Source of the DNA: Flavobacterium ovatum
GTDB taxonomy: Bacteria > Bacteroidota > Bacteroidia > Flavobacteriales > Flavobacteriaceae
Assembly (NCBI RefSeq): GCF_040703125.1
Contig: NZ_CP160035.1
Span: 1,364,001 to 1,428,000 of the forward strand
Length of the DNA: 64,000 bases
Direction of reading: 5' to 3'
Shown one piece after another: positions 12,507-56,287 of this stretch (the stretch's first letter is position 1; the number at the start of each line of letters is the position of its first letter). The translations under genes were made by a program, and so were the position numbers. Below the pieces are notes generated by a model. It was not told the origin of the DNA. It made no database searches and worked only from the letters and a program-made list of their open reading frames with translations.

Positions 12507-12514
12507 TTAAACTT

Positions 12515-15362: not shown

Positions 15363-17195
<1,833 letters not shown>

Positions 17196-17617: not shown

Positions 17618-17625
17618 GTGAGCTG

Positions 17626-40700: not shown

Positions 40701-41074
40701 ATAGCAATGTTGTTTTCAGTAGTTAGGTCTTCTTTAGTTTTTCCTCCAATCATTTTGGTGAGAATCATTGTTGAAGACCAAAATAAGAAAAGTATGGTGA
40801 AGGCACTAGAAACAACAGAAGTCATATTGACCATTAAAGCGATATGTTGATTATCTATTGCAAACATTGCGAAAAATGCGCCAATCATTTGAAATAATGG
40901 AGCTCCAGGAGGGTGTCCTACTTCAAGTTTTGCTGAAGTTGCAATGTATTCACCACAATCCCAAAAACTCATTGTAGGTTCAACTGTTAAGCTGTAAGTG
41001 ATCAATGCTATTGCAAATGTGACCCAACCTACAAGAGTATTCCATTTATTGAAATTGAATGCTGCTTTACTCAT
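37787..41074 (-). CDS. DUF2723 / glycosyltransferase family 117-type membrane protein
   Basis: A 1095-residue integral membrane protein. The N-terminal half has about 12-13 membrane segments and the DUF2723 signature: LVGWVTFAIALITYSLTVEPTMSFWDCGEYIATSAKLEVGHPPGAPLF, carrying the early-loop acidic D-x-G-E pattern known from GT-C mannosyltransferase folds. The soluble C-terminal part follows a second membrane block (NERPFEPRERDYALVGSFYVFAIWVG ... FTIGDNDTFPLWYAQEI) and ends in a helical repeat-like region. The family is widespread in Bacteroidota and is now annotated as GT117, thought to transfer a sugar from a lipid donor. The exact substrate is unknown. Confidence 0.88.
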   Translation of the reverse strand: MSKAAFNFNKWNTLVGWVTFAIALITYSLTVEPTMSFWDCGEYIATSAKLEVGHPPGAPLFQMIGAFFAMFAIDNQHIALMVNMTSVVSSAFTILFLFWSSTMILTKMIGGKTKEDLTTENNIAILGSSFVGALVYTFSDSFWFNAVEAEVYAMASLFIALLFWLGLRWEQDMDKPKGNKWLLVISLVIGLSFGVHFMALLAIPSIGLLYYFKHYKTVTVKNFIIANIVVISVLLFIFKLLLPLTMAFIGKTEIFMVNNLGMPFDSGTIIVGLFLAVFFYFGLKYTKVKGLIHYNTLLLSILFILIGFSTWLMLPIRANANTVINENKPSDAAEVLAYYNREQYGVNPLFYGPQYTETFAGLDPKTPYLDKAPNYERDYKTGKYVIVNNFKNAVQNSDDYHKTILPRMWSSEHIANYMNFTSAPTFKINPNYPYEEDLSKYGIDASKISEEDYNKAIAQLKNEVEKTVSEFRLAYAQKQIDNDGYVKFLKSYGEYLIIEKPTTADNFSFMVEYQFGYMYWRYLMWNFVGRQSDNQGRYDSLDGNWLSGIKFIDETHLGSQENLPSDVLNNKGRNTYYFIPFILGLIGIMYHAGKERKSFYVLLMLFLFLGIALKIYLNERPFEPRERDYALVGSFYVFAIWVGFGVYSLYESLQTYLSPKIAGPIIISACLLTAPVIMAAQNWDDHDRSDKYTALSMAKAYLSSCDQNAILFTIGDNDTFPLWYAQEIEKIRTDIKIVNTSLFMTDWYIDQMKMKTYESDALPISFTHDQYVGDKLDYVAYIPKTESRWELKDLIEFIKNPKSTVGLQNGQTIHFFPTNKIRIPVDRNAIIQNKVVAPKYNDSIVPYIDIDIKGSALYKNRLMMLDIIANNNWKRPIYFSGGAYDNEDYLWMKEYLQLDGMVYRLVPLKTAIPKDGSPLDMGQIDSDKMYNIIMSWDWGNSDSDKIYHDPETRRESITYRTNLARLMDKLIEEGKIDKAKKVIDLAITKMPLEKFGYYSLIEPFTKGYYQTNDVTKAQELLNKLIGKYRESLNYYSKLSPAEQSEIAIDIITDIERYRSLLQVMKENGDLTFYEKNKKTFNTYIEMFQHFGRDKE

Positions 41075-41314: not shown

Positions 41315-41385
41315 TGGTCTATGGTGTAATGGTAACACTACTGTTTTTGGTGCAGTCATTCAAGGTTCGAGTCCTTGTAGACCAA
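41315..41385 (+). tRNA. tRNA-Gln (anticodon TTG)
   Basis: 71 bases fold as a cloverleaf. The acceptor stem TGGTCTA pairs with TAGACCA. The D arm holds GTGTAATGGTAACAC. The anticodon stem ACTGT/GCAGT encloses the loop TTTTGGT with anticodon TTG. The T arm is CAAGG-TTCGAGT-CCTTG. Discriminator A; CCA is not encoded. Its 3' end is the attachment site of the downstream island, and the last 16 bases are repeated at 56288-56304. Confidence 0.97.
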
Positions 41386-41386
41386 C
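41370..41386 (+). repeat. Left attachment site (attL) of the island
   Basis: AGTCCTTGTAGACCAAC, the 3' end of tRNA-Gln plus one base, is duplicated exactly at 56288-56304. The tRNA remains whole after integration. Confidence 0.92.
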
Positions 41387-41400
41387 TGGTATTTTTGAAG

Positions 41401-41440
41401 AACCCCGTAAACATTATGTTTACGGGGTTTTCTTTTTTTT
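41401..41440 (+). terminator. Terminator supplied by the island downstream of tRNA-Gln
   Basis: AACCCCGTAAAC pairs with GTTTACGGGGTT around ATTAT, followed by a T-rich run. It replaces the native tRNA terminator, which now lies at 56311-56341 beyond the right junction. Confidence 0.88.
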
Positions 41441-41441
41441 G

Positions 41442-41462
41442 GCGTAGTAAATCACGTAGTAA
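41442..41462. promoter_or_regulatory. Candidate integrase arm-type site, left
   Basis: Two direct copies of CGTAGTAA-like sequence 13 bases apart (GCGTAGTAAATC then ACGTAGTAA). The same 21-base arrangement recurs at 56142-56162 near the right end, with only three internal bases changed. Confidence 0.55.
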
Positions 41463-41522
41463 TTTGCTGTTATGAAATGGAATGTATTGAAGAATATGAA
41501 ATTAATATCTATTTAATTTCAT

Positions 41523-42092
41523 TCATTCAATAACAAAGCTATTCTGCCTATTTATTAGCGTGTCTCTATTTTTAATCTTTAAGATTGAATCTTTATAGCT
41601 AATTTGGTGCAACAGTAAAAAGGTATCATATTTAAAGAGATGAAAACAGATGTTTTCAAGATTAAGGTCTGTAATTTCAATTTCATAACTACCAATCTTA
41701 CCTGTTTCAAATTCTTCGATGTAAATACCTATTTTTTGTTCTTCTTCACCTAATGTTACTTTGCTGTTGTAAGTGGGGAATATTGAGTATTCAGGGCTTA
41801 AATCAGCCATTTTAAATTTACTTATTTTTTTTCCGTCATACCAGATTTCAATTTGATTTTTGTTTGTATCCTTTAAGCCGAATAGAGTAGTTGCTTTTAG
41901 ATCATAATGTGACTGAATATTGCTTAGCAATAGCTTAGGGTAAAAAAAAGGGTCAATTATAGCTTGGTGTAAAGTTTGATTTGTTCTTTTGGCGATTTGT
42001 TCAAAGTACTCTTTTTGGATAGATTCCAATTCAATTTTTTTCAATGACCAACCGTCGCCGTATAAATTTATTTTTAATTTTGTAGCCATCAT
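41523..42092 (-). CDS. Hypothetical protein of the island
   Basis: A 189-residue protein that I do not recognise. Two adjacent ATG codons start it (MMATKLKINLYGDGW). It has no signal peptide or membrane segment; it looks mostly beta with mixed charge (IEIWYDGKKISKF, EEQKIGIYIEEFETGKIGSYEIEITDL). A decayed second copy of its first 25 codons lies at 42640-42705, so the gene family has been duplicated and partly lost. It is the gene closest to the left attachment site. Function unknown; it could be an accessory or immunity-type gene, but nothing here proves that. Confidence 0.7.
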   Translation of the reverse strand: MMATKLKINLYGDGWSLKKIELESIQKEYFEQIAKRTNQTLHQAIIDPFFYPKLLLSNIQSHYDLKATTLFGLKDTNKNQIEIWYDGKKISKFKMADLSPEYSIFPTYNSKVTLGEEEQKIGIYIEEFETGKIGSYEIEITDLNLENICFHLFKYDTFLLLHQISYKDSILKIKNRDTLINRQNSFVIE

Positions 42093-42639
42093 TTCACGAA
42101 GGTAACATTTCTAAAGATAGCAATAAGTAGCAATAAGTAGCTAGTATTGTAAGTCCTTTAGGAATATTTGTCTTGATTATATTATATTGGTGAAATTGAT
42201 TAGCATCAGTCTGATTGAAATTGATCAATAGTTATCAAAGAAATAATTTTGAATATAAATTAGTTTTTAAATAGTTAAATAATTAATATTAAATTATTTA
42301 TTGATTCTCGCTATTTAACGTGAAATATGCTAAATATAAGTGTAAACCATTTTATTTCTAACTAATAAATTAGTAATAAAAGTGCCTACGTCCAATTATA
42401 ATCTTGTATGTTTTTGTATGTGTTGGACTCTAACTCTAACTCTCAATATTTAGACTCTTTTTTAATAAATAAAACTGAATTCAGATTAAATAAAATTAGT
42501 CTTGTGGTGTCCTATGTAGCTTTGTGCTTTCAACAGTGTGGTAAATCAAATTTAATTGTTATCACCCAGTAAATTAAAATCTAATCCCCATTCAATTTCT
42601 TTCCAACATCATCCTGTCTTTTGGTAGGCAGGACTAAGG
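42093..42639. other. Non-coding island DNA
   Basis: A very AT-rich region with many stops in all frames. Short repeats are present, for example CAATAAGTAG repeated at 42120-42138 and TCTAACTCTAACTCT at 42428-42442. No gene was recognised. Confidence 0.4.
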
Positions 42640-42705
42640 ATCTGGTTCCACTTTCTTAAATGACTAAATATTACCATATAAATTTATTTTGAGTTTTGAA
42701 TCCAT
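42640..42705 (-). pseudogene. Decayed N-terminal copy of the 189-residue gene
   Basis: Translation from the ATG at 42705 gives MDSKLKINLYGNI, a stop (TAG), then SFKKVEPDP. This aligns residue for residue with MATKLKINLYGDGWSLKKIELES of the intact gene at 41523-42092, with the TGG tryptophan codon changed to TAG. The similarity then fades. It is a remnant of a paralogue. Confidence 0.75.
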
Positions 42706-42923
42706 CTTTTTCTTTGCTTTTCACATAGTCTTATAATTATTAAATCCAGAGAGAAAAGTTTTGTGCAATTTAGAGAAGTTACACAAATCAATCGTTTATC
42801 AAAAGGTAATTTATTCCAAGTTTATCTATCACAGTATTCGTAAATTCTTGATAGGAAACCTTAAAAGTGGTTTTGACAGAAAGTAAGGTTTATTAAGTCA
42901 TAATAGTAAAAAAAGATTTACTT

Positions 42924-43106
42924 AACCCGTTGGGTGAAATTAAAACAATAGTTTATTTTATATCTATTGTCACATTGAGCTTGTCGAAATGTATCTTAAA
43001 CGAGGTCTTCGACAGGCTCAGACTGACATTTTTGGTCTAAATGACTTTAGATTTAGATTAGAATCGTCATTTTTTAGTGATTCTGAGTAATTTCACCCAA
43101 CGGGTT
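42924..43106. mobile_element. MITE-like element with 19-bp terminal inverted repeats
   Basis: The ends are perfect inverted copies of AACCCGTTGGGTGAAATTA (42924-42942 and 43088-43106). A 5-base direct repeat, TACTT, flanks it (42919-42923 and 43107-43111). The 183-base element holds no gene. Inside is another imperfect inverted repeat (CATTGAGCTTGTCGAAATG against CTTCGACAGGCTCAG). Classic MITE anatomy. Confidence 0.9.
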
Positions 43107-43373
43107 TACTTATACAATTCCAAGTCATGACTATTTAAATAAATTTTATCAATAAATTAGAAATATTACTGATGTCAAATGCTTTATATTTAAAGCTATA
43201 GGTCTAGATTAATTTATTTTGAAGCATTACGATTAAAGAAACAGATTTTCGTTTTTTTTTGTAATATTTCTAAAAAAGCTTAACAGATATACTAATTATT
43301 ATCTTGAGTGGCAGACTGTAAAAAATGTACCTCTGAAATAAAGATTTTAGTAATCGAATTCAAAATTTGCTAA

Positions 43374-43586
43374 TTATAAATCATTTAAAGACTTCATTCC
43401 ACTTCTTCTTATTTTATCTAAAATTTCATTAAGCGCATTTTTTGGGTCAGAATCGATTAATTTACCATTTCGGTCTAATTATTTGTCTAAATCACTATCG
43501 CACCTTAAATCGACTGACAATACTGTTATTAGTGCCTTATCTTTTGTTTTTTTAAATTTTTCATGATTAAAAATTTGACGGTACAT
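43374..43586 (-). pseudogene. Short gene interrupted by one stop codon
   Basis: An ATG at 43586 opens a 70-codon frame broken only by a TAA at 43479-43481. Before the stop: MYRQIFNHEKFKKTKDKALI and onward to SDLDK. After it: LDRNGKLIDSDPKNALNEIL and onward, ending at a second TAA. The frame otherwise looks coding. It begins 27 bases past the end of the 469-residue gene and may have been the last gene of the operon. Family not recognised. Confidence 0.45.
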
Positions 43587-43612
43587 TTTGAAATAAGTTT
43601 AAAAGTACAAAA

Positions 43613-45022
43613 TCATATCGGAAAATCTCTGTTAATCTTAATAAGTCTATTTAATTCATCGCAATATTTACTGTTACTCCCTAAATATTGAGAATATATA
43701 AAATTGAATCTTTTTAATGTAACAAATGATGAAACATTAAATTCTTCAAAAAATGGTTCTTCTATGTCAAAAGGAAGATTATAACTTGATTGGAATATTT
43801 TATTTAATAACTCTCCATCTAGGGGAATAAAACAACGTACAGGTAAACCAAAATCTACTTTTTCTATCCGATTTTCCCCATACTTAACAATTTCTAAGCA
43901 ATTGTTATGACCGCCATCAATATAGAAAAAAGAATTTTCGGATTTTATACCAAATCTTTCAAGACTCGGTTCATCAAATCTTAATGCGCTCAAATCTCTG
44001 ACAGAACTAGATTTATATGGGGGGCTATAAAGTCCTGGATACCAATTCTGAATTAATTCAAAATTATCAGCATCAAAGTATGCCAACTCACCACCACTTA
44101 AATTGCCTTCTTCAGATACAATACAACATTCATTTTTTAAATCAAATACAGATATTCTGTTATTTTTCTTGACATCTATAACCTGATATATCCCATTTAT
44201 TCTAACACCCAAGCCATAATCCCCATATGAACGTACAATAGAATAGGGCGTTGCCCATTGTTCATCACCTAAAATACCATGTCTAGCATAAAGTGGATGT
44301 TCTGATGTTGATATGGTAGAGCTCAAAAAATTCCAATCTGCTATAGTTGGTAAAAGCCAGCCGTAAGGGACAAAATTATATTTGTTTCTTTTAATGTTTT
44401 TATATAAAACATCATTCTCATCAATTGTATATTCAGTATTTTCAAAAGCTAAGTTTTTGGCAAACCAAATAGAATATTGGTTTACATATAAAGGATATTC
44501 TTTACCGTCTCGTGAGTCAAAGAAAAACAATTCTTCATCTTTTATTATTATGCCTTTTTCTTTGTCTACCCATTGAACATCGATATTCTGGTAAAGAGTA
44601 TCTTTATTAAAAGACTCTTTCTTGTCCGACGAATCCTTTTGTGCAATTGACTTGTCTAAGATGACCTCGTTCGTATCATTATCTACTACTAATATCCTGT
44701 TTTCACCAATTTCTAGCCCTGTTTTTATTGATTTGAAGTATCGCTTAATGCATTCAGGACTAATCTCTAATCTGATTCTGTCTACGACAACTTCTATAAC
44801 ATAATTTTCGTCAGAATCAATTTTTAAATTATTCTCTAAATCTTTAAGTTTTCCATTAACACAAATTTTTAGAAAACCTGAGTCATAGAATTTAAAAAGT
44901 TGACGATCTAAGTCAATCTGTGTAGTATAATTAACAGAAACAAGAATATTAACTCTTTTGTTTAAATGGTTTTTTAAATGTTCTTTAATCAGATTATTAA
45001 TAGTAGGTATATCTGTTTTCAT
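43613..45022 (-). CDS. UvrA-segment / FISUMP-like fusion protein of the RiPP-like operon
   Basis: A 469-residue protein with two recognisable parts. Residues about 22-125 resemble the stretch of UvrA that precedes its first zinc finger: LDRQLFKFYDSGFLKICVNG, DLENNLKIDSDENYVIEVVV then DRIRLE, and KSIKTGLEIGENRILVVD, compared with UvrA 'f..lr..GfvrvrvDGei.dLd...kl.k..khtIEvVVDRl ... etAL.lg.G'. No Walker motifs are present, so it is not an ATPase. Residues about 165-235 resemble the FISUMP (Fibrobacter succinogenes major paralogous) pattern: FFDSRDGKEYPLYVNQYSIW, FAKNLAFEN, PYGWLLPTIADW. The C-terminal 200 residues are unassigned. No signal peptide. Last intact gene of the operon, 28 bases after the phosphoesterase. 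Role unknown. Confidence 0.7.
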   Translation of the reverse strand: MKTDIPTINNLIKEHLKNHLNKRVNILVSVNYTTQIDLDRQLFKFYDSGFLKICVNGKLKDLENNLKIDSDENYVIEVVVDRIRLEISPECIKRYFKSIKTGLEIGENRILVVDNDTNEVILDKSIAQKDSSDKKESFNKDTLYQNIDVQWVDKEKGIIIKDEELFFFDSRDGKEYPLYVNQYSIWFAKNLAFENTEYTIDENDVLYKNIKRNKYNFVPYGWLLPTIADWNFLSSTISTSEHPLYARHGILGDEQWATPYSIVRSYGDYGLGVRINGIYQVIDVKKNNRISVFDLKNECCIVSEEGNLSGGELAYFDADNFELIQNWYPGLYSPPYKSSSVRDLSALRFDEPSLERFGIKSENSFFYIDGGHNNCLEIVKYGENRIEKVDFGLPVRCFIPLDGELLNKIFQSSYNLPFDIEEPFFEEFNVSSFVTLKRFNFIYSQYLGSNSKYCDELNRLIKINRDFPI

Positions 45023-45050
45023 ATTATTCGTTACTTAGGTTATATTACAT

Positions 45051-45803
45051 TTAATTTTTTTTCGTTCGAAAGTCAGTATACTTATCAGCTGTCATTAATG
45101 AAATGGAAATTACAATTCCGTTTTCTGCTATTTTGAAACATTCTAATATCTTAGCTGTTTTATCACTCAAAAGTAATCCCGTCAAAAAACCACCGTAACC
45201 ACATTCGGTATTTATATTTATCCCCTTTTGATTATAACTCACTTCCTCTGTAAGTCTATGACCGTGGATAAATCTTTTACCTTTCCAGGCAGGATCGAAG
45301 TCATAATTCCAAATCAATTCTTCTTGTATCTTTTCATTTATATCTTGCTGTGTATCTCTAAGTGGTGCATGAACAAAAATAAATTGTGATGTTTCAAAAT
45401 AGAGATGAGTGTTTTGCAAAAAATTCACAACTTGGCTCTGAAAATCACCTGGCGATATTAACCAATCCGCATATGCTTGTTCTCTGGTTCGAGAATCGTA
45501 CCCTTGCGGATGTTCTTTACCATTTATCAAATCCAATAACATCTGATCGTGATTGCCCCTTAAAAACACCCAATCAGGATTGCTCTCTTTGGCTGATATA
45601 AGTGTTTTTAAAACTTGCATACACGAATATTGAGGAACTAAATTTTCTGATATAGCTTCTTTTCCATTATTTTTATAATCTACATAATCACCTAGGAAAA
45701 CTGCTCTAGCTCTACATTGTCCTGCTACGGCTACAGCAGATTCTGCCGCCTTGAAACATCCGTGAATATCTCCAAAAGCCATATATTTTACTTTGCTACT
45801 CAT
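45051..45803 (-). CDS. Calcineurin-like (PPP-type) phosphoesterase of the RiPP-like operon
   Basis: A 250-residue soluble phosphoesterase. All PPP metal motifs are there: FGDIHG (D12, H14), LGDYVDYKNNG (D39, D42), LRGNHDQML (N84, H85), FVHAPL (H145) and FIHGHRL (H180, H182). It is close to bis(5'-nucleosyl)-tetraphosphatase or Ser/Thr phosphatase-like enzymes. Its start overlaps the stop of the ATP-grasp gene by 4 bases (ATGA), so the two are coupled and may act on the same substrate or product. It may remove a phosphate or AMP from a peptide or sugar, or act in self-protection; this is inference. Confidence 0.88.
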   Translation of the reverse strand: MSSKVKYMAFGDIHGCFKAAESAVAVAGQCRARAVFLGDYVDYKNNGKEAISENLVPQYSCMQVLKTLISAKESNPDWVFLRGNHDQMLLDLINGKEHPQGYDSRTREQAYADWLISPGDFQSQVVNFLQNTHLYFETSQFIFVHAPLRDTQQDINEKIQEELIWNYDFDPAWKGKRFIHGHRLTEEVSYNQKGININTECGYGGFLTGLLLSDKTAKILECFKIAENGIVISISLMTADKYTDFRTKKN

Positions 45804-46537
45804 GATGCGAATTCTTTTTTAATCCAACTAGCAAAAAGTTCTGCCGAATTAACAGCATGTCGATCCGATGATTCTCCAGGATTTACTTCTACGACAAACT
45901 CTGGTGTAGCATCAATTGTATAATAGCGACTACCTAATTTATTTAGCCTCTTAGTTGCTTCTATTACCACTTCAGGTATAATATTGTACCTGTGGTATAT
46001 GTTGCCATTCAGCACCCAATAACGTTCTTCTTGTTGAATCTTCTCTGGTTCAATAAATTTTCTGATGGCATACTTACCATCAAAAATAAACTCATCATAT
46101 AACTTTTTCATTTCTTCCAAAGAAGTAGTGGGGTAGACTGATTTACCTTCCTCAACATGCTCTAAAGCCTTTGCATCTTTTTTTATAAACGCTTTATCCC
46201 AACCTTTATCATAAATTAATTTAGGGACTTCCTGATTTAATTCATCGACAAAAAAGGTTTCAATACTTAAATCTGCGATATGTGGATAATATGTAGATAA
46301 GCGTGTATAATCTATAAGATTTTGAAATTTGTTGATAAATCGTTTATCCTGTGGATATTTTTCTTCTTGATATATACAAAACCCCCTGTGCATTAAATTT
46401 TCAGAGTTACTATCTGGATCTAAACCAACTGTAATCCCAGCCTTCTGCATTGCTTCGGCTTCTTCTTTCCATAGCCAATGAATCTCTTGTGTATTTACTT
46501 CTGATGAAGGATAAATAATTTGAAATTTTTTTTTCAT
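45800..46537 (-). CDS. ATP-grasp enzyme, R2K-like clade
   Basis: A 245-residue ATP-grasp protein. It has the lysine-bearing strand KAFIKKDAKALEH (K119/K120), the RKFIEPEKIQQEERYWVLNGN segment (R159, R172) and the metal-binding end YTIDATPEFVVEVNPGESSD (D209, E217, N219). The arrangement resembles the R2K group of ATP-grasp enzymes. ATP-grasp enzymes form amide, ester or thioester bonds through acyl phosphates; in RiPP clusters they cross-link side chains or add residues. Substrate here is unknown; the candidate precursor in the same operon is an obvious possibility. There is a 72-base gap after the glycosyltransferase and a 4-base overlap with the phosphoesterase. Confidence 0.75.
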   Translation of the reverse strand: MKKKFQIIYPSSEVNTQEIHWLWKEEAEAMQKAGITVGLDPDSNSENLMHRGFCIYQEEKYPQDKRFINKFQNLIDYTRLSTYYPHIADLSIETFFVDELNQEVPKLIYDKGWDKAFIKKDAKALEHVEEGKSVYPTTSLEEMKKLYDEFIFDGKYAIRKFIEPEKIQQEERYWVLNGNIYHRYNIIPEVVIEATKRLNKLGSRYYTIDATPEFVVEVNPGESSDRHAVNSAELFASWIKKEFAS

Positions 46538-46609
46538 AAGTAATTTAATTCTTTTTTATTGATAAAATAATATCAACCTCCTTTAAGTTTTTCCGAAACC
46601 ATTTTTCAC

Positions 46610-48190
46610 TTATAAATCATCTGGCACCAAATAACCCAACTGAACTAGTTCCTGAACCAATTCTATATTTTTTTGATTATTAGGGTAAAATATTGGATCA
46701 TCCATAGTATTTACACTTTTTCTTAAATACATCCAATTGGTCTCATTGTATCTCTTGATTCGAGGACCAGGAAAACCAAATTCTACAATTGCTTTCTCTT
46801 CCTCCCAAAGTTTTATACGCCAAAATCCACGATAACCGTTTCCTTTCACAATTTCTTGAGGACTGGAATAGGTGGTATAAAGCCCTTGTATAGCTGTAAA
46901 AAAGTGAGGCTCTGAAAACCATCCGACACCTATATCTCCCGTACCATCAACATAAAGTCCCTCTGGATAAAGTTTTGAGTTTAATTTAACGGCTTCTTGG
47001 AACGAATTAGGTGCTTGTTCCATCCATTTGTCAAAACGTTCTTTTGAACGCCAATTTCCTATTGGTGCTTCTTCTGGAAGAATTCTAAGAAATTTAAATG
47101 CTTCTGCTTTTAATAATTCAATGGATTTATCGGGATTACATTCGTTAGTGATCCATTCGGCATTGAAGTGTTTATTTTCAATCTGTTGTTTTTTTGTCCA
47201 TGATTTAATTTTAATAATCTCTTCGCTTAGTTGTTTTAAACTGTAACGTACACCTCCAAGTGTAGGGTAAGTTTTAACTACACCTCCTTTAATCGATGCT
47301 AATTGTCCCAAACCACAAAAGTCTGAAACAACTGTTGGCAAGCCACATAGTATAGCTTCTCTTGGCGTAATACCAAAATTTTCATCTTCATGAAAGGAAG
47401 GATAAACAAAACAATCTGCCGACCAAAATAAACTTCGAAGAGTATGGTGATCCATTGATTTTAGACAAATCAAATCACAGAATTTATTAGATTCTAGTAT
47501 TTCTCTATCAAAAAACTGTGAAAAGGTTGTGTGGTTAGCATTGCTTTGATAAATAAAAAAGTCAGGTTCAAAATCACCAACCAATGTAACTCTAATATTT
47601 TGTTCACCAGAGATATTCAATGCTCTTATAAGCTGGGCTATACCTTTATTTGCAATAAATCTACCAGCATAAACAATATGAAAGCATTCCTTTTTTACTT
47701 TAAACCATTTTTTTGCACTTTCCCTTTCAATATCAGTAGGTAAACAAAATATATCGGTGTTTAATTTAGGTACAAGAACCCCCAATGTAGGGGCTACTTC
47801 ACCTAAGCCATTATATAACTGTTTGCTTTGTTTTTGACTTGTAACAATATTAAGCGTTGCTTCCCTGAAAGTCCATCGATTTAGAAATCCCCCAGTTGTC
47901 ATAAGTGCTCCTTTGGTATGTTGTAACAACCGACAAGCTAAATCATCAGGTGGGTTTTCGTGAAATGTAGCAAAAATGACATCATCCTGAGTACACAGTT
48001 GTTTTAGTAACTCCGAATCTTGGCTAGGGCTCACTTTGATGATTTCTCCGATTTTAGCCAATGATTCAAAATAATGAGCTTTCAAATAATTTACAGAGGT
48101 ACTTGCATCTAATACTGGGAAGTTTTCATGCGTATCCTCATCCAAGTTTGAATAAAAATCAAATTCCGATATAGGTACAATAAAACGCAT
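46610..48190 (-). CDS. GT4-type glycosyltransferase with a C-terminal extension
   Basis: A 526-residue GT-B fold glycosyltransferase. Residues about 165-370 carry the group 1 signatures: FHIVYAGRFIANKGIAQLIRAL, the E-x7-E motif in YPSFHEDENFGITPREAILCG (E270, E278) and LPTVVSDFCGLGQL. The N-terminal acceptor domain is divergent. After about residue 375 an extra domain of 150 residues (QAPNSFQEAVKLNSKLYPEG, GVGWFSEPHFFTAIQGLYTT, NGYRGFWRIKLWEEEKAIVE) is not part of the family as I know it. In this operon it may glycosylate the peptide product. It starts 17 bases after the cyclase-like gene. Confidence 0.82.
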   Translation of the reverse strand: MRFIVPISEFDFYSNLDEDTHENFPVLDASTSVNYLKAHYFESLAKIGEIIKVSPSQDSELLKQLCTQDDVIFATFHENPPDDLACRLLQHTKGALMTTGGFLNRWTFREATLNIVTSQKQSKQLYNGLGEVAPTLGVLVPKLNTDIFCLPTDIERESAKKWFKVKKECFHIVYAGRFIANKGIAQLIRALNISGEQNIRVTLVGDFEPDFFIYQSNANHTTFSQFFDREILESNKFCDLICLKSMDHHTLRSLFWSADCFVYPSFHEDENFGITPREAILCGLPTVVSDFCGLGQLASIKGGVVKTYPTLGGVRYSLKQLSEEIIKIKSWTKKQQIENKHFNAEWITNECNPDKSIELLKAEAFKFLRILPEEAPIGNWRSKERFDKWMEQAPNSFQEAVKLNSKLYPEGLYVDGTGDIGVGWFSEPHFFTAIQGLYTTYSSPQEIVKGNGYRGFWRIKLWEEEKAIVEFGFPGPRIKRYNETNWMYLRKSVNTMDDPIFYPNNQKNIELVQELVQLGYLVPDDL

Positions 48191-48207
48191 TTTTCTAATT
48201 TTGAATA

Positions 48208-49356
48208 TTAGCTTTTTTCAAATAAACCATTCAGCCATACCGCTAGCGAGACTCTAGATTCTATTCCTTGATACATCGTTTTTTGAGCATCACGTAAATC
48301 TTGGTTCAGCAAATCATTAGTATTCTGAGAAGAAAAATAGGGGTTAGCCGTTATGTCATAAGCATGTTCAAAGAGCTTTCGAATTGTAGGAACTGCATTC
48401 AATAAACCATCAATATACAATCCCCAAAAATCTGCGCAATATGTGTAATTAATTAGCTCTTGTGGCAAAAAGTCTTTAAAAAACTGTCTAGCCCATAATT
48501 TAGTATTATCCTCTCCTTGTCCTAAACGTAAATTATATACAGTATTCATGATACCCAAATCGGCATAAAAAGGAACTACTTCTATGCCATGAGGTGCATA
48601 AGCGAGATCATCCAACCACGAATCTCTAAAAACCTGAGGCATCCAAGTGCATTCACGTGCATCCAATTGAATTGGTTCTGCAAATAAATTATCACCTCCA
48701 CTACCCGTCAAAAGTACCTCTACACCCATCTTTTGACATTCAATTGCCATAGCTTTATTAGTATGATAATTCAAATTAAGCATGTCAGGATGTTGGTGAG
48801 CCGGTACTTTTTCCAATTGACTTAATGGTAAATAATCTTCAAAATCAATTAAAACAGTATTTTTACCTAAAGGTGCAATTAATTCTTGGATATATCTTTC
48901 GGTTCTAAATTCATAACGGCTAGAACTCATTCCGACTAATGAAAAAGAAATTTTAAAATGTTTTAATAATGTAATAATTATACTAGAATCAAAACCACCA
49001 CTGAGTTGTACACCAATATGTTTTGATTTATACTGGTCAAAAAAAATGGCACTAGCTTCCAGAAAATCATTGATATCTGTGTACTGCAACTTCGGTTGAA
49101 AACAAGGGTCTGTTAAAATCTTCTTCTCTACATTCCACAGCATTCCTGAATAAACTGGAAGAATATCTTCAATTACTGGTTGACATTGTGATCGGTTTAA
49201 TGCACCGAGTTTTACATTTTTTTCAAAAATTTCAGGCTGAATATTTTTCCAAATCCCTTTGCTGTGATTTTTCCATATTTGGGGTAGTTTTTCTCCTGTA
49301 GACAATAAGCGGAAATGTGCGCTAGGTTCTTCTATATAGTTTGAAGCTATTTTCAT
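48208..49356 (-). CDS. Asparagine-synthetase-like protein, probable lasso-peptide-type cyclase (C protein)
   Basis: A 382-residue protein with the ATP-pyrophosphatase domain of class B asparagine synthetases. The PP-loop is VQLSGGFDSSIIITLL (S119-S125), followed by the VLLTGSGGDNLFAE motif. The N-terminal 110 residues are a reduced glutaminase-like part without a catalytic N-terminal cysteine. In lasso-peptide systems such proteins (McjC type) adenylate an Asp or Glu side chain and close the macrolactam. The ATG at 49356 overlaps the stop of the B2 gene as TAATG; an open extension to 49392 is less likely. Shorter than McjC (about 500 residues). Alternative: another AsnB-like amidotransferase. 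Confidence 0.8.
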   Translation of the reverse strand: MKIASNYIEEPSAHFRLLSTGEKLPQIWKNHSKGIWKNIQPEIFEKNVKLGALNRSQCQPVIEDILPVYSGMLWNVEKKILTDPCFQPKLQYTDINDFLEASAIFFDQYKSKHIGVQLSGGFDSSIIITLLKHFKISFSLVGMSSSRYEFRTERYIQELIAPLGKNTVLIDFEDYLPLSQLEKVPAHQHPDMLNLNYHTNKAMAIECQKMGVEVLLTGSGGDNLFAEPIQLDARECTWMPQVFRDSWLDDLAYAPHGIEVVPFYADLGIMNTVYNLRLGQGEDNTKLWARQFFKDFLPQELINYTYCADFWGLYIDGLLNAVPTIRKLFEHAYDITANPYFSSQNTNDLLNQDLRDAQKTMYQGIESRVSLAVWLNGLFEKS

Positions 49357-49907
49357 TAATATATGGCCGCTACAGGTTGAAAATTTATCCACATATTATC
49401 GTAACAATCTGGTTGTATGCCGTCTTCAATAATCCATGCATGCATCGATTTTGAAGGCAGAAATATGCCAATAAACATAACGCCTTCCTTTGCGAATTTT
49501 TTAGATGTACTAGCAGCAAACAAAGATCTAGGATAACATAAATCATTTTGAATACCACCTGGATAAAGTTTGCGAAAATAATCAATGGCTTCCTGAGAAG
49601 AGTCAAATATTGGACGACCAAAATTAGCTGCTATTTTACCTAGTAAGAATGAAACTTTACAAGTCTTGATTAATGCAAAAACATAAAATTTAATAAAAAT
49701 ATCATTGATAAAATCATCGTTTTTAAAAACCCCTTTTCTCAAAAGGTATGGCTTATTACAACTATGGATTGCTTTTTCTAACTTTTTATTAGGAACTTGC
49801 TGGCTTATTTTCTTCAATTTCATTTCCTTTTCTAGTAGCAATCCAGTTACTGGATCGAAAACATATTGAAAAGTAGAATGAGAAATTGGTAGGGAAATAA
49901 TATTCAT
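49356..49907 (-). CDS. Lasso-peptide-type B2 protein (transglutaminase-like leader peptidase)
   Basis: A 183-residue protein. The C-terminal half fits the transglutaminase-like core of lasso B2/McjB proteins: the catalytic cysteine in QNDLCYPRSLFAAS (C124), the strand EGVMFIGIFLPSKSMHAWIIEDG with histidine 156 and an acidic residue (E161 or D162). B2 proteins remove the leader from the precursor. The N-terminal 80 residues are divergent (MNIISLPISHSTFQYVFDP). It overlaps the upstream 92-residue gene by 4 bases (ATGA) and the cyclase by 1 base, so all three are tightly coupled. Confidence 0.78.
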   Translation of the reverse strand: MNIISLPISHSTFQYVFDPVTGLLLEKEMKLKKISQQVPNKKLEKAIHSCNKPYLLRKGVFKNDDFINDIFIKFYVFALIKTCKVSFLLGKIAANFGRPIFDSSQEAIDYFRKLYPGGIQNDLCYPRSLFAASTSKKFAKEGVMFIGIFLPSKSMHAWIIEDGIQPDCYDNMWINFQPVAAIY

Positions 49908-50182
49908 ATATAAAAAATTTCCGAAGAGATTATTCTCATAACTTTCCCACTTCCATTAAAAATACCATTCGGGTTATTTGAATTTTCAGAAATTATAATT
50001 TCTAAACTTTCACCTAGTAAATCTTTTATAGAACAGTTCATATTTATGTTGGAAAATTTAATTGTAAGCTCATCCTTATTACCAAAGTCGAAAGTATTAT
50101 CAAGAGCATAAGATCTAACACGTAGTATAGCCAAATCATCTCCAATACATTCTCTTATAGTTCCGTAAATTATATTTGCCAT
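49904..50182 (-). CDS. Small protein in the position of a RiPP recognition (B1) gene
   Basis: A 92-residue protein that I do not recognise. It is mainly beta by pattern (NIIYGTIRECIGDDLAILRV, KDELTIKFSNINM, GESLEIIISENSN, GKVMRIISSEIFYI). In lasso clusters the gene before B2 is usually B1, a PqqD-like leader-binding domain of about 85-90 residues. Size and position fit, but the sequence does not show a clear PqqD pattern. It overlaps B2 by 4 bases. A role as a leader-binding partner is a guess from context. Confidence 0.65.
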   Translation of the reverse strand: MANIIYGTIRECIGDDLAILRVRSYALDNTFDFGNKDELTIKFSNINMNCSIKDLLGESLEIIISENSNNPNGIFNGSGKVMRIISSEIFYI

Positions 50183-50228
50183 ATTTTAATAAATAACCGA
50201 AAACATTATGAAATTTTAAACAATCCTA

Positions 50229-50384
50229 CTATTTACGGATTTCATCCATTTGATTTCCTAAACTTTGTAAATCTTGAAGGTGCTTCGCTCCATCTTCAAT
50301 AATTTTTTTAAATGCTTCTTTTTGATCATTAGTAAGTTCTGATTCCTCTAGTGTTTCTAAAAGCAATTTGACACATTCTTCCAT
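50229..50384 (-). CDS. 51-residue acidic helical protein
   Basis: ATG at 50384, TAG at 50229-50231. It begins MEECVKLLLETLEESELTND and ends LQSLGNQMDEIRK. It looks all-helical and acidic with heptad-like leucines, one cysteine and no glycine-rich core. It lies between the candidate precursor and the 92-residue gene. It could be a second precursor, a leader-like helper or an immunity peptide; nothing distinguishes these. Confidence 0.5.
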   Translation of the reverse strand: MEECVKLLLETLEESELTNDQKEAFKKIIEDGAKHLQDLQSLGNQMDEIRK

Positions 50385-50495
50385 TTTTATATTATTTTAA
50401 TTATTATCATTTGGTCACATTGGTTAAAAACACATTTCTGGTGCATTACCCAAAACAATACCCTTAAAATCACAACCCTTAAGCAGAATAATTAT

Positions 50496-50527
50496 AAAGT
50501 GTGAAGGCGTTTATTACCCCACACTTT
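50496..50527 (-). terminator. Stem-loop between the candidate precursor and the biosynthetic genes
   Basis: On the minus strand AAAGTGTG pairs with CACACTTT, extended by GG/CC, across an AT-rich loop. It lies 14 bases past the precursor stop. No long T run follows, so it may be a partial terminator or an mRNA-stabilising hairpin of the kind found after RiPP precursor genes. Confidence 0.55.
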
Positions 50528-50540
50528 ATTTTTACATCAT

Positions 50541-50699
50541 TTAATAAGTATCATAACTAGTACTAGTCTTTTGGGTTTTCCAATCCACACCATTTTGGTC
50601 ACGTGTTCCACCACTTTTTCTTCCTTTAATAGCAGTGTGATCAGCATGAATTTTTGCTCCGTAAGCTAACTCGACAATTCTTTTTACTAAATTTTTCAT
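50541..50699 (-). CDS. Candidate RiPP (lasso-like) precursor peptide, 52 residues
   Basis: ATG at 50699, TAA at 50541-50543, with an AAAAAAATG start context. The peptide opens with a basic, helix-prone leader (MKNLVKRIVELAYGAKIHAD). The C-terminal part is polar and Gly/Thr/Ser-rich: GRKSGGTRDQNGVDWK, then TQKTSTSYDTY. Glycine 31 lies eight residues before Asp39, which would give a nine-membered Gly-Asp macrolactam (GTRDQNGVD) with the tail WKTQKTSTSYDTY. Gly26 to Asp34 has the same spacing. The usual leader Thr at -2 is Ser29 in the first choice. First gene of the operon and followed by a stem-loop. The tail is rich in Thr, Ser and Tyr, fitting a glycosyltransferase substrate. Confidence 0.55.
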   Translation of the reverse strand: MKNLVKRIVELAYGAKIHADHTAIKGRKSGGTRDQNGVDWKTQKTSTSYDTY

Positions 50700-50830
50700 T
50701 TTTTTAATATTTATTATCTTTCCTACTCTTTAAAGGATTTTCGGACAACTCCTTTTTTTTAACAGCAATCCGTATGGATATCTAATCTTACAAATCAAAT
50801 TAAAAATAAGTTAGAAAAAGAGGCGATTTT

Positions 50831-50866
50831 GTTCTAAATTAATTATTTTTGGTTCTAATTTAGAAC
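50831..50866. promoter_or_regulatory. Palindromic operator upstream of the XRE regulator
   Basis: GTTCTAATTTAGAAC (50852-50866) is a perfect 15-base palindrome four bases before the regulator ATG. A further half-site, GTTCTAA, lies at 50831-50837. A -7-like TATTTTTG (50844-50851) sits between them, so binding would block transcription. Probably the autoregulatory site of the XRE protein and perhaps a control point for the divergent operon. Confidence 0.6.
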
Positions 50867-50870
50867 TTTT

Positions 50871-51227
50871 ATGAAAGCAGATATTGGAAATAAAATCAGA
50901 AAGATTAGAGAATTAAAAGGTTTAACACAAGATTACATGGCTAACCAACTGGAAATGTCACAACGTGCGTATTCTAAAATAGAGAATAATGATATTAAAC
51001 TTGACTGGAATAGAATTGAAAGTATTTCTAAAATATTAGATATAGAACCTATTGACTTGGTTTCTTTTGAAGATAATTTGGTTTTTAATAATTGTTCACA
51101 TTCAGGAAAAGCTCATATAATGTATAACAATAACTTTCCAGAGGAACTCAAAAAAAGCTACGAAGATCGTATTAGTCATTTAGATCAAGAAGTGCTATTT
51201 TTAAGAAGCTTATTGGAAAAAAAATAA
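50871..51227 (+). CDS. XRE-family helix-turn-helix regulator
   Basis: A 118-residue DNA-binding protein. The N-terminal HTH_3 domain is IGNKIRKIRELKGLTQDYMANQLEMSQRAYSKIENNDIKLDW and the ILDIEPIDLVSF helix. The C-terminal end is a short coiled coil (SYEDRISHLDQEVLFLRSLLEKK), probably for dimerisation. It is transcribed divergently from the RiPP-like operon, with a palindromic operator overlapping its own promoter, so it most likely controls that operon and itself. Confidence 0.88.
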   Translation: MKADIGNKIRKIRELKGLTQDYMANQLEMSQRAYSKIENNDIKLDWNRIESISKILDIEPIDLVSFEDNLVFNNCSHSGKAHIMYNNNFPEELKKSYEDRISHLDQEVLFLRSLLEKK

Positions 51228-51890
51228 AGTTGTTAGAAGCTCTTATTTTGTTTTTTAATGACTTTATTAATTTTCTTCGATAGTTTAAACAGCATAAAAA
51301 TTTCCTAAAATTTGGAATAGCAACAATAGTCAACTCGATGCAATTTCGCCGTACGTTTGTTCTACTGGACGAAGCATCACCAATTTAATCATTACAATAA
51401 ATAATCGTAATTTTCTGATACTACCAATTATTACTATTAATAAAAATCACAAATTATTAAATTAATCATTAATAGCCTATTAGTACTGGTGTGTTAATTT
51501 TTTTCGATTAGGGTCAATATAGTATAATACTATTAAAATAATACTATATTTCATATTGTTATATATGCCACTATTTTCACTAAAAAAACACATTATAGCA
51601 CGCCATCACTCACTTAAATCGTAATTTCAACCTATTTTTATTACGGTTAATTACCCATCGCAATTATAACTAGACAATCAAAACAGATTTTAAAAAGCCA
51701 AAGGTTAGATTTTGTTCCTTATTTCTTTGCAATAAACATAACCTCAATAATCAGCTTAAAAAAGATTAACAGAGAAAAGACTAAACTTCATCACAAATTA
51801 TTTGTATAAGATTAATGATCCCAGCAGATTAATGCTGCTGGCTACTTGATTCTCTATGATGAATTAAGTGCTTTAAATCTTTTCAAGTGC
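51228..51890. other. AT-rich region with inverted repeats before the PolA-like gene
   Basis: No gene supported. Notable structures are ATATAGTAT/ATACTATAT at 51517-51549 within extremely AT-rich sequence and CCAGCAG/CTGCTGG at 51821-51841 directly before the next reading frame. AT-rich repeats beside a polymerase-like gene could mark a replication origin, but no iterons were recognised. Confidence 0.4.
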
Positions 51891-53162
51891 ATGTATCAAA
51901 TAATAAATTTTAATTACAAATCAGCTCTCTTTACACAAATTGACGCTACCACCCTACAACTACTATCTTTATCTTCAGACTGCTACATAAACAACAGGGA
52001 ATTGATGTCTGATTTAAGTAATATAGAATTGCCTCTACAGGACAGAAACAAATCAGTGAAAAAAATATTAGAATTTTTAATATATCTGGAACATGAAGTA
52101 AAATTAGGTGGCACTTCTACTTTAATAATTCCGCTCCAAGTTTTTGAAAGCTACTTTTCGCCAAATTCTTATACTAAGTATCAATTAATACTTAAAGACT
52201 TGAAGATTTTAACCAATGTACCACACGATGATGGATCTTGGTACAAATATTTTGACAAGAAAAAATGCGAAACGAGCAAAACTGACTTAGGATTAGCAAA
52301 GAACTACAGAGTACATAATAATTATCTTGATAATGATGATTTAGTGTTGATAATATTTAATAATAAAATTAAAAATTCAATAGTTACAGTTACAAATCAC
52401 ATCCTTAAGCTTCCAAAAAAATACATAAACACTATAAAAAGTCTTAAAATAAATATTGGAAATGCGCTACAGGCAGAATTAAATGAATATCACAAACAGA
52501 AAATCAATTTTTCACAATTAAAATATCGAATTTCTCGAATTTTTGATGCTAGAAATAACAGGTTTATTAAATATGGAAAGAAAGTCAATAGAATTTATCA
52601 TTCATTTAGTAACATAAGCAAAGTAACTCGACAGCATTTCAATATTAATTTTTTTGAAATTGATATAACAAATTGTCAACCAACACTGTTAATAGCTTAT
52701 TTAGTGGACAACCAATATAAGTTAGATATGAACTATCAAACTGATTGTGAAAACGGCACTTTTTACGAAAGATTTATTGATTTGACAGATATTAGGTATT
52801 CCTTTGGTGATGATCTCGGTGATTTCAAAGAAGCTAGATCGACCACTAAGTCAATAATCTACAAAAATATCTTTTTCGGGTTCAATCCAAGAAATAAATG
52901 TAATAAGCGTTTTCGAGAAATATACCCCAATGTTTGGGAATCTTTATCTAAAATTAAACATGATAAAAGGTCTTTAGCAGCTGAACTTCAAAATATTGAA
53001 TCGCTATTATTCAATAGCTTAGTTCCTAAAAAAAGTAAATATTACTATACGTTACATGACGCAATATTCTATTCAAGTGATGGGGATACTTGTGAGCTAG
53101 AACAGCAAATAGTTGATTTTTTTGCTATTCGAAATATCAATGTTAAAATTGAAAAACGATAA
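51891..53162 (+). CDS. Compact family-A DNA polymerase-like protein of the island
   Basis: A 423-residue protein from the ATG at 51891; the frame is open to a TTG at 51846. The C-terminal half shows the three family-A polymerase motifs in order. Motif A is FFEIDITNCQPTLLIAYL (D at 52662), in the place of ADYSQIELR. The O-helix is RSTTKSIIYKNIFFGF (R at 52836), keeping R-x3-K-x3-aromatic-x3-aromatic, followed by FREIYPNVWESLSKI. Motif C is YTLHDAIFYSS (HD at 53055-53060), in the place of VHDELVF. HSFSNISKVTRQHF, before motif A, aligns with the LQNIPVRTERGR region of PolA. There are no exonuclease domains. The N-terminal 240 residues are unassigned. It may replicate or repair the excised element. 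Confidence 0.7.
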   Translation: MYQIINFNYKSALFTQIDATTLQLLSLSSDCYINNRELMSDLSNIELPLQDRNKSVKKILEFLIYLEHEVKLGGTSTLIIPLQVFESYFSPNSYTKYQLILKDLKILTNVPHDDGSWYKYFDKKKCETSKTDLGLAKNYRVHNNYLDNDDLVLIIFNNKIKNSIVTVTNHILKLPKKYINTIKSLKINIGNALQAELNEYHKQKINFSQLKYRISRIFDARNNRFIKYGKKVNRIYHSFSNISKVTRQHFNINFFEIDITNCQPTLLIAYLVDNQYKLDMNYQTDCENGTFYERFIDLTDIRYSFGDDLGDFKEARSTTKSIIYKNIFFGFNPRNKCNKRFREIYPNVWESLSKIKHDKRSLAAELQNIESLLFNSLVPKKSKYYYTLHDAIFYSSDGDTCELEQQIVDFFAIRNINVKIEKR

Positions 53163-53292
53163 TTAAAAAACTAGACATAAACAATTTGTAAAATAAATTA
53201 AAAAAAACGCAAAATTAACTAAACTTTTGATTGTCCAAAATATATAAGATATGTGATTGCAACGAAGCAACACATATTAAACAAATAAAAAA

Positions 53293-53466
53293 ATGGAATA
53301 TGGTGAATACGTAGGCACAAAAGAAGCGATGATTATCCTAGGCATAAAAAGCGAAACTACAATTATAAAACATGAAAAATCGGGTAAAATTAAAGCTTAC
53401 AGACCTTTTGCGAATAGAAAAAGATTTAAGGTTTCAGAGTTGCTGAATATACAGTCTAAGAAATAG
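53293..53466 (+). CDS. Excisionase-like HTH protein
   Basis: A 57-residue protein too short for routine calls: MEYGEYVGTKEAMIILGIKS, then ETTIIKHEKSGKIKAYRPFA, ending NRKRFKVSELLNIQSKK. It matches the MerR/excisionase-type HTH_17 pattern (helix-turn-helix, then a wing with basic residues and 'y...g.kryrfkvseLl'). Small proteins of this kind direct excision or regulate the integrase in integrative elements. It follows the PolA-like gene by 130 bases. Confidence 0.75.
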   Translation: MEYGEYVGTKEAMIILGIKSETTIIKHEKSGKIKAYRPFANRKRFKVSELLNIQSKK

Positions 53467-53549
53467 CTTTACTCACATCTTTATTTTGTAAAAAAAGCTT
53501 ATAGCGAATATATTTAGTACACTAACTTTTTTAATAATTAAAATATTCT

Positions 53550-53918
53550 ATGAAATACATATTCAATTTTTATGGCAGAAGTGGTGAATGGAATGAGGAT
53601 ACTCAAAGTTTTATCCTCGAATTCCGTTCGTCAGATGATATCAACTCATATTATGATCACATTAGAGCTAAGTGCTACCAAACTAATTTTAATCTCGATC
53701 CTTACAATTTTAATGCGTATGGAAAATTCGAACTTGATAATGAAAGTTATATTATTCATGCACCAGTACAATCAAACTTCGATCACAACTGGTATGAATA
53801 TCACAGTATGAGTAAAAGATATGTTGAAATATCACCACTAAATCGTGATTCTTTTCTCTTGAAAAAAGCAAGAAGAGATACTATTAATCAGATTATTAAT
53901 TATATAGTATGGCAATAA
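53550..53918 (+). CDS. Hypothetical protein of the island
   Basis: A 122-residue soluble protein that I do not recognise. It is rich in aromatic, Asn and Asp residues (MKYIFNFYGRSGEWNEDTQS, FNAYGKFELDNESYIIHAPV, FDHNWYEYHSMSKRYVEISP) and ends in a basic helix, SFLLKKARRDTINQIINYIV. No cysteine motif other than one Cys, no signal peptide. Neighbours are excisionase-like and recombinase genes on the same strand. Confidence 0.6.
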   Translation: MKYIFNFYGRSGEWNEDTQSFILEFRSSDDINSYYDHIRAKCYQTNFNLDPYNFNAYGKFELDNESYIIHAPVQSNFDHNWYEYHSMSKRYVEISPLNRDSFLLKKARRDTINQIINYIVWQ

Positions 53919-54049
53919 AAATAATAATATTTTAATAGGGTTGATATTTTTTTTACAATACTCTATCGTGCAAATAGGTTCATTTATAGGGCATACTCTA
54001 AAAGGACACGGTTTCTAGCAACCAATTTATATCTTTTAATATGTATGTT

Positions 54050-54080
54050 TTTGCCACTCTAAAAATATACACTATATTTG
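54050..54080 (+). promoter_or_regulatory. Promoter of the serine recombinase gene
   Basis: TTTG (54050-54053), a 19-base spacer and TATATTTG (54073-54080) form a full Bacteroidota promoter, 19 bases before the ATG. Confidence 0.75.
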
Positions 54081-54098
54081 CTTGATAAATATCTTCTC

Positions 54099-54698: not shown

Positions 54699-54737
54699 AG
54701 ACTTTGGTAAGTCAAAACTAAATTCGGTAATGTCTAA

Positions 54738-56129: not shown

Positions 56130-56141
56130 AGGTTAAAAGTA

Positions 56142-56162
56142 GCGTAGTGATTCACGTAGTAA
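56142..56162. promoter_or_regulatory. Candidate integrase arm-type site, right
   Basis: GCGTAGTGATTC then ACGTAGTAA, matching the left-end site at 41442-41462 in 18 of 21 bases and in the same orientation. It lies just upstream of the integrase start codon. Confidence 0.55.
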
Positions 56163-56287
56163 AAGTATGGTTTAAATTGGAATTTGTTGGTATTAAATGA
56201 AATGTTTTTTTTTTATATAATTTTTCTTAACCCTTGATTTTGTTGGTAATTGAAAGGTTTTGATGTTCAATGATGTGTTAAGATAAT

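Follow-up and report, generated by a model that had tools for sequence, protein, structure and literature searches.

The described system that comes closest to the locus analyzed here is the BsfA lasso peptide of Bradymonas sediminis, for which the accessible part of the report (PMC10368454) gives a modification on ring Ser3, a precursor in which Ile serves at position -2, a predicted Gly1-Asp8 ring, and a mature product that went undetected. The present locus lies in a window of 64,000 nucleotides of Flavobacterium ovatum DNA (the whole stretch analyzed; contig NZ_CP160035.1, positions 1,364,001 to 1,428,000), where nine minus-strand reading frames at 43613-50699 include a cassette of a short precursor peptide and its candidate processing enzymes. 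Like BsfA, as far as that source describes it, the cassette combines an AsnB-like cyclase, a transglutaminase-like peptidase, a predicted Gly1-Asp ring and Ile/Val(-2). Taken as a whole, it is best explained as making a lasso-like macrolactam of the ribosomally synthesized and post-translationally modified peptides (RiPPs), a reading that we consider probable. Strict membership in the lasso class is not supported by the sequences, because Thr(-2), the YxxPxL leader motif and membership of the cyclase in a lasso clade are all lacking; the evidence suggests instead an unrecognized peptide family, perhaps for conflict between bacteria. The original prediction, a lasso pathway with unusual tailoring, thus identified a RiPP operon of lasso-like character but drew the class too narrowly, since the cyclase does not group with the lasso cyclases sampled and neither Thr(-2) nor YxxPxL is present.

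The differences from BsfA, within the available text of that report, extend to both enzymes and peptide: BsfA has a B1 protein, YxxPxL and a kinase, whereas in the cassette B1 and YxxPxL were not found and an R2K-type ATP-grasp enzyme stands in place of the kinase; the predicted ring has nine residues, and the cyclase is shorter and belongs to a separate clade. Paeninodin and pseudomycoidin are, like the cassette, products of lasso-type clusters with extra tailoring that includes sugar addition; their sugar step, as given in the accessible part of PMC9266682, involves a nucleotidyltransferase and a C-terminal Ser, whereas the cassette has a GT4 glycosyltransferase, found in 3 of 12 loci. Such an enzyme is not the unusual partner it was initially taken for, as 36% of the complete lasso clusters in a rumen survey carry a glycosyltransferase, according to the part available (PMC7533575). 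Graspetides likewise pair an ATP-grasp enzyme with a short precursor, but ring closure in the cassette is assigned to the AsnB-like enzyme and NCBIfam yields no match for the R2K protein; R2K goes unmentioned in the main text, as available, of the graspetide survey PMC8939145. Proteins of R2K family 3 (R2K_3) were predicted by Burroughs et al. to be peptide ligases with roles in conflict, in contexts (GNAT, ADP-ribosylglycohydrolase and R2K.2 genes) unlike the cassette, and the terms transglutaminase, asparagine synthetase and lasso do not occur in the accessible text (PMC4431377). The cassette is not described in the available portions of PMC9266682, PMC10352776, PMC8939145, PMC13352647, PMC11118758, PMC7470986 or PMC12710340, and neither it nor an R2K partner of lasso peptides was found in the open-licence PMC literature searched, to the extent that those texts are accessible.

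A genome scan with the cyclase (C) yielded at least 38 loci, eleven of which (L002-L012) are true relatives, 33-51% identical over most of the query; the 27 loci L013-L039 (partial matches, E ~2e-4 to 5e-7) were handled as generic AsnB-like. The relatives come from several Bacteroidia metagenome-assembled genomes (MAGs) and from bins that carry the labels Akkermansiaceae, Erysipelotrichaceae and Campbellbacteria (labels taken as given). With the window included, the transglutaminase-like protein (B2) and C occur together in 12 of 12 loci (in L004 with a phosphoesterase gene between them) and R2K in 11, while a relative of the precursor lies upstream of B2 in all ten loci where that stretch is visible (L002 and L011 begin too near B2 to show it). 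Because the order precursor-B2-C-R2K is found again in distant MAGs, the arrangement exceeds chance. In these sequences the precursor, B2, C and R2K are the conserved core, and the remaining genes look accessory: GT4 is present in the window, L002 and L004, the phosphoesterase in the window and L004 only (2 of 12), and the 51-residue, 92-residue and UvrA/FISUMP proteins have no counterpart in the eleven relative loci, all counts being limited by the early ends of several relative contigs. All five had been listed in the operon, but comparison of the 12 loci does not place them in the conserved pathway; of the enzymes predicted for ATP-grasp and sugar tailoring, R2K stands as a core member, and GT4 becomes accessory.

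The precursor (52 residues; 50541-50699, minus strand), encoded by the key gene of the operon, consists of a 25-residue leader ending in Ile-Lys, a core GRKSGGTRD with a predicted Gly1-Asp9 ring, and an 18-residue tail. A profile search returned 168 homologues at E <= 1; in the best 120 of these together with the L007 peptide, 121 in all, the core reads Gly1-x-[K/L]3-[S/T]4-x-Gly6-x-x-Asp9 without exception, Gly1, Ser/Thr4, Gly6 and Asp9 each being present in 121 and Lys3 in 120. The lasso pattern of Gly, Ala, Ser or Cys at position 1 and Asp or Glu at positions 7-9 is therefore found throughout, as Gly1 and Asp9, and because these two residues are invariant a Gly1-Asp9 macrolactam is proposed. 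At position -2, where Thr is a lasso hallmark, there is Ile in 110 peptides and Val in 11, and at position -7 there is Ala in 116. The C-terminus is varied (Asn is the last residue in 74 of the 121), and there are 115 distinct tails. Mean pairwise identity among 122 peptides (7381 pairs) is 0.52 for the leader (-12 to -1), 0.67 for the ring and 0.32 for the tail; even where leaders agree to 90% or more (816 pairs), tail identity averages 0.38 and exceeds 0.8 in only 13 pairs. Distal tails score 0.245, little more than the 0.221 of a control with one member of the pair shuffled.

Precursors located by genomic context agree with the core motif found by profile search. They were recognized by homology in L003-L006, L008, L009 and L012 and by eye or motif in L007 and L010, and the precursor gene immediately precedes B2 in all loci but three (the window, L003 and L006). 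Scanning the 596,488 bases of L002-L039 in six frames with the pattern [IV]xGx[KRLQ][ST]xGxxD gave nine hits, one at each of the nine precursor positions just named, and none in the 27 loci L013-L039; as the pattern was derived from peptides already known, the new information is the absence of stray hits and the L010 precursor, which had been concealed inside an over-long B2 frame. The proposal of a RiPP operon, in which a B2-like peptidase and an AsnB-like cyclase probably act on the 52-residue peptide, is supported: homologous loci show the opposite of a consistent lack of a short peptide gene, with the gene present in 10 of 10. The host genome has one precursor match and one C match. Processing of the double-glycine type was considered and rejected (leaders ending in Gly-Gly, Gly-Ala or Gly-Ser, 0 of 120), as were the 51- and 92-residue proteins as alternative precursors, since they lack relatives in other loci.

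B2 (183 residues; 49356-49907, minus strand) is a putative leader peptidase of transglutaminase fold, as in lasso systems. The Cys124 and His156 singled out in the original prediction are invariant in all 12 aligned family members, as is Asp170, and 11 of the 12 match Transglut_core3 (PF13471) at E <= 1 (best 5e-6), the exception being the window's own protein. An AlphaFold2 model (predicted local distance difference test score, pLDDT, 91) places a beta-rich N-terminal extension in the first 65 residues. The 92-residue protein was considered as B1 and rejected, being dissimilar to lasso B1 proteins and to RiPP recognition elements (RREs). Canonical lasso B2 genes do occur elsewhere in the class (L048, 1342-1791, plus strand; L049, 1474-1941, minus strand; L050-L053), four of them with B1.

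C (48208-49356, minus strand) has 382 residues when started at ATG 49356, in place of the earlier frame from GTG 49392. It matches Asn_synthase (PF00733) at 44.9 bits, above the cut-off, and its AlphaFold2 model (pLDDT 92) has a predicted fold like those of AsnB, carbapenam synthetase and beta-lactam synthetase, but the N-terminal part of the asparagine-synthetase fold, ~127 residues, is missing. There are 275 homologues at E <= 1e-5, the best 120 of which span 314-400 residues; in genomes C is scarce, being found in 1 of 60, 1 of 395 and 2 of 393. As in lasso systems, an AsnB-like macrolactam synthetase is thus encoded with the precursor, to judge from PF00733, the modelled fold and the operon-like run, and its cyclization activity is predicted. 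In a tree of 42 rows the 16 members of the C family form one clade (support 100/100) on a branch of 3.2; the rows were chosen, and those marked as asparagine synthetases, for which B1 and B2 were undetected nearby, could include lasso cyclases. This placement outside the sampled lasso cyclase clades is one of the outcomes that the original prediction had named as speaking against it. Nor do the seven lasso cyclases sampled group as a single clade, and the tree has several long branches.

The R2K protein (45800-46537, minus strand) is an ATP-grasp ligase of the R2K clade, with R2K_3 as the sole ATP-grasp family matched in Pfam. The window's protein narrowly misses the curated cut-off (25.4 bits, with 26.3 required), and 4 of 11 family members match R2K_3 at E <= 0.01; Glu217 and Asn219, which we take to be the Mg-binding E-x-N motif of ATP-grasp enzymes, are invariant in 11 of 11, and there are 371 homologues at E <= 1e-5. 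Of the 98 C-bearing metagenome contigs longer than 3 kb, 34 share their exact length with an entry for R2K, as do 32 of the 71 longer than 5 kb, whereas simulating smoothed lengths above 3 kb gave 0.4 shared lengths on average and 4 at most (top 120 of each list, equal length serving as a proxy for the same contig). This recurrence, far above chance, likewise ties R2K to C.

A candidate site for R2K is suggested by L005, which has the sole Leu3 precursor and, alone among the 12 contigs, lacks R2K. That contig is 4.6 kb long and ends 278 bases after C; no R2K gene is seen to begin in these bases, which carry a short frame that appears HipA-like by eye, a HipA gene being located on the opposite side. 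Because the Leu3 precursor lies on the one R2K-less contig, Lys3 of the ring is tentatively proposed as the residue that R2K modifies. ATP-grasp enzymes couple a carboxylate to an amine, and the simplest product would therefore have the side chain of Lys3 acylated or aminoacylated; albusnodin, a lasso peptide with an acetylated lysine, offers a precedent. The Asn-rich C-terminus is a weaker alternative site.

Two RNA features flank the precursor gene. The 5' untranslated region contains an RF02914 (DUF805b) element (50720-50754, minus strand; Rfam 41.9 bits, cut-off 35.6), which stands directly upstream of the precursor in seven of ten loci (the window, L003, L006, L007, L008, L009 and L012). 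The Rfam covariance model shows one stem; a second helix is seen in the window, L003, L006-L009, L012 and L055-L085, formed by loop nucleotides before GAAAA and those after AGAGTA. In the seven cassette sequences all three pairs of this helix show two-sided changes, and 88 of 93 pairs form across 31 loci (shuffle mean 76, maximum 82), a set that includes the window's own locus and one evident chance match (L061). DUF805b is therefore an H-type pseudoknot, as this covariation of the second helix indicates. The host genome has one copy; in the class, 112 of the 198 genomes have a match at E <= 0.001 and 75 have one above the cut-off, with up to 11 matches per genome. The element precedes varied genes in the 12 loci for which a downstream gene is listed; it thus looks like a general regulatory element, widespread upstream of unrelated genes. 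No paper on the DUF805b RNA was found in the open-licence PMC literature search. Directly after the precursor stop codon a stem-loop is predicted (50480-50540, minus strand; attenuator or mRNA 3' end), with -16 kcal/mol and z -4.2 for the 61-nt piece and z -1.7 for the 157-nt gap. A hairpin of differing sequence stands in the same place in nine of ten loci, that of L010 looking like a complete intrinsic terminator. We infer the usual RiPP layout, in which such a hairpin gives an excess of precursor.

From these elements a pathway can be proposed. The precursor would be transcribed behind DUF805b, with the predicted stem-loop letting precursor mRNA exceed enzyme mRNA. B2 would then bind the short leader, probably via its own beta-rich N-terminal extension, and cut between residue -1 and Gly1 with Ile/Val(-2) as guide. 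Because Gly1 and Asp9 are invariant and the predicted fold of C is like that of lactam synthetases, C is expected to adenylate the Asp9 side chain and link this to the amine of Gly1, which would close a ring of nine residues; for the window's core the calculated monoisotopic mass is 3035.433 in linear form and 3017.423 as the Gly1-Asp9 macrolactam, 18.011 Da less. R2K might next make an amide on the peptide, most likely at the near-invariant ring Lys3, and in some loci GT4 and the phosphoesterase may tailor the product further. In the resulting molecule leader and ring would provide the scaffold and the hypervariable tail the specificity part, whose targets would probably be a rival strain, a phage or an element.

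In the window the cassette is cargo of a tRNA-Gln integrative element, which bears out the tRNA-Gln island of the original prediction. The 14.9-kb element (41370-56304) is bounded by 17-bp direct repeats (AGTCCTTGTAGACCAAC, at 41370-41386 and 56288-56304), the first of which is the 3' end of tRNA-Gln (41315-41386), and contains a tyrosine integrase (54738-56129, minus strand), an excisionase-like HTH_17 protein (53293-53466, plus strand; below cut-off) and a resolvase (54078-54698, plus strand). Related loci show the empty site: of 19 same-genus loci around a Usp gene, 12 have tRNA-Gln ~50-210 bases away, and 11 of these also have the 1095-residue gene (window 37787-41074, presumably DUF2723-like) on the other side, so that 11 of the 19 show the empty site; tRNA-Gln was not seen within the retrieved stretch in the other seven. 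Integrase, flanking repeats in a tRNA gene and an empty site elsewhere, the features of tRNA-targeted integrative elements, are thus all present. A phage origin was considered and rejected. PADLOC matches only the divergent helix-turn-helix (HTH) regulator and, weakly, the 51-residue protein (PDC-S23, E 9e-4). Among 20 chosen neighbors in other loci, 12 have a Pfam match and 8 have none; the matches include Schlafen AlbA_2, HipA, 8xMP, kinase/VWA/PP2C, DUF2971, PD-(D/E)XK and SRA, families known from conflict loci. In L008 the kinase, VWA and PP2C genes lie downstream of the cassette (12204-15553, plus strand). An indirect parallel is the co-expression of lasso-peptide families with nearby defence systems, reported in the available part of PMC11118758.

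Several observations weigh against a lasso-like macrolactam as the product. The chemistry is deduced from sequences and models, and any threading, export and function are hypothetical. B2 has no PqqD or RRE match by sequence, no separate RRE or B1 was recognized, and when its profile was compared with those of six canonical B2s from Bacteroidota, nothing but the HAW region aligned, at a probability of 2%. The C clade stands apart from the 7 lasso and the 19 other AsnB-like rows of the tree, and the asparagine synthase model matches 20 of 20 C members compared with 17 of 20 for the lasso cyclase model. YxxPxL occurs in 0 of 120 precursors; the search profile already contained the core motif, so that its invariance is partly selected; and tails can resemble each other, identity exceeding 80% in 32 of 7381 pairs. 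DUF805b is below threshold in L004, L005 and L010, and the hairpin is absent in L009. The link between Lys3 and R2K depends on the single L005 lineage, whose contig ends so soon past C. No immunity gene was recognized, and no open reading frame with an ABC signature is present in the island or near the eleven relatives as far as their contigs reach, in agreement with the initial claim of no ABC exporter, this being the one exporter type tried. An ordinary if diverged lasso cluster, in which B2 would be a fused B protein whose RRE has shrunk, C a truncated lasso cyclase, R2K and GT4 lineage-specific tailoring enzymes and the product threaded, is a serious contender that falls somewhat short of an even chance: membership in PF13471, Gly1-Asp9, the beta-rich extension of B2 and the 17 of 20 C proteins matching the lasso cyclase model all suit it, as does the scatter of the sampled lasso cyclases over several clades, and the BsfA precursor offers a precedent for Ile(-2) in the accessible text of PMC10368454. 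It is opposed by the separate, very long branch of C, by the lack of YxxPxL and of an RRE detectable by sequence, and by an R2K that is almost obligate, unlike a tailoring enzyme.

At the other end lies a separate, non-lasso RiPP class, RRE-less, with its own glutaminase-stripped cyclases, an R2K that obligatorily acylates Lys3, a hypervariable tail that sets target specificity on a mobile conflict island, and no dedicated export; this fuller claim we regard as rather unlikely, though far from negligible. Unlikely, too, is an intracellular role in which the modified peptide serves defence against phages or competition between elements, export is unneeded and the tail tracks phage or plasmid targets. 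The lack of an ABC exporter in all 12 loci within the contigs, the cassette's position as cargo of an integrative element, the 12 of 20 chosen neighbors with Pfam matches, some of types known from conflict systems, and the phage-host conflict role proposed by Burroughs et al. for R2K_3 (PMC4431377, accessible part) would fit such a role, but PADLOC finds little here, the neighbors vary by locus with no conserved toxin or sensor, and ABC was the only exporter type checked. That no cyclization occurs at all, B2 being a transamidase or isopeptidase and C and R2K conjugating the peptide, tag-like, to a protein or small molecule, is highly improbable: the predicted peptide-ligase activity of R2K proteins (PMC4431377, as available), the 74 of 121 precursors ending in Asn and the best score of C against the asparagine synthase model are compatible with a tag, but the invariant Gly1/Asp9 spacing equals that of a lasso ring, hypervariable tails would be odd for one, and the C-terminus is not invariant.

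If the cassette does make a lasso-like macrolactam, hundreds of peptides on one scaffold would have come into view, which tools keyed to an RRE together with a canonical cyclase would tend to miss. With its constant ring and variable tail, the lasso-like scaffold would then supply recognition peptides as a natural library, an orphan RNA element, DUF805b, would be tied to a RiPP operon, and a substrate would be available for a bacterial R2K_3 ATP-grasp enzyme, a family whose function is only predicted in the accessible part of PMC4431377.

The gene run itself is as originally predicted: all nine frames are present, with overlaps of 4 bases between the 92-residue and B2 genes (49904-49907), 1 base between B2 and C when C begins at ATG 49356, and 4 bases between R2K and the phosphoesterase (45800-45803). 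The family labels given to C, GT4, the phosphoesterase and the UvrA interaction domain are supported by Pfam, NCBIfam and PHROGs profiles, with R2K_3 just under and FISUMP below cut-off. GT4, an optional tailoring enzyme with a C-terminal extension (46610-48190, minus strand), matches Glycos_transf_1 at 56.4 bits. The optional calcineurin/PPP-type phosphoesterase (45051-45803, minus strand) matches Metallophos at 41.6 bits and the NinI-like phosphatase phrog_246 of PHROGs at 97 bits; no finding supports the editing or protecting role once suggested for it. The UvrA/FISUMP protein (43613-45022, minus strand) starts 28 bases downstream of the phosphoesterase gene and has a stand-alone UvrA interaction (UvrB-binding) domain (UvrA_inter, 44.2 bits, above cut-off); the region after it resembles FISUMP weakly and stays below cut-off in both libraries. 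Between precursor and B2 lie the 51-residue (50229-50384, minus strand) and 92-residue (49904-50182, minus strand) proteins; other genes fill this slot in L003 (190 residues) and L006 (an octameric membrane protein, 8xMP, 1395-2108, plus strand), and a slot that varies by locus in this way could be one for immunity.

Elsewhere in the element, there is a divergent Xre-type HTH regulator (50871-51227, plus strand; HTH_3, 38.8 bits), and three proteins have no significant Pfam family (51846-53162, plus strand, 438 residues; 53550-53918, plus strand, 122 residues; 41523-42092, minus strand, 189 residues), the 438-residue protein being, as a guess, one that may be of replication type. The window also contains a thiamine pyrophosphate (TPP) riboswitch and two Flavo-1 RNAs (17528-17624, minus strand; 21629-21710, plus strand; 62146-62228, minus strand), the Flavo-1 RNAs being, we presume, consistent with a Flavobacteriaceae host.

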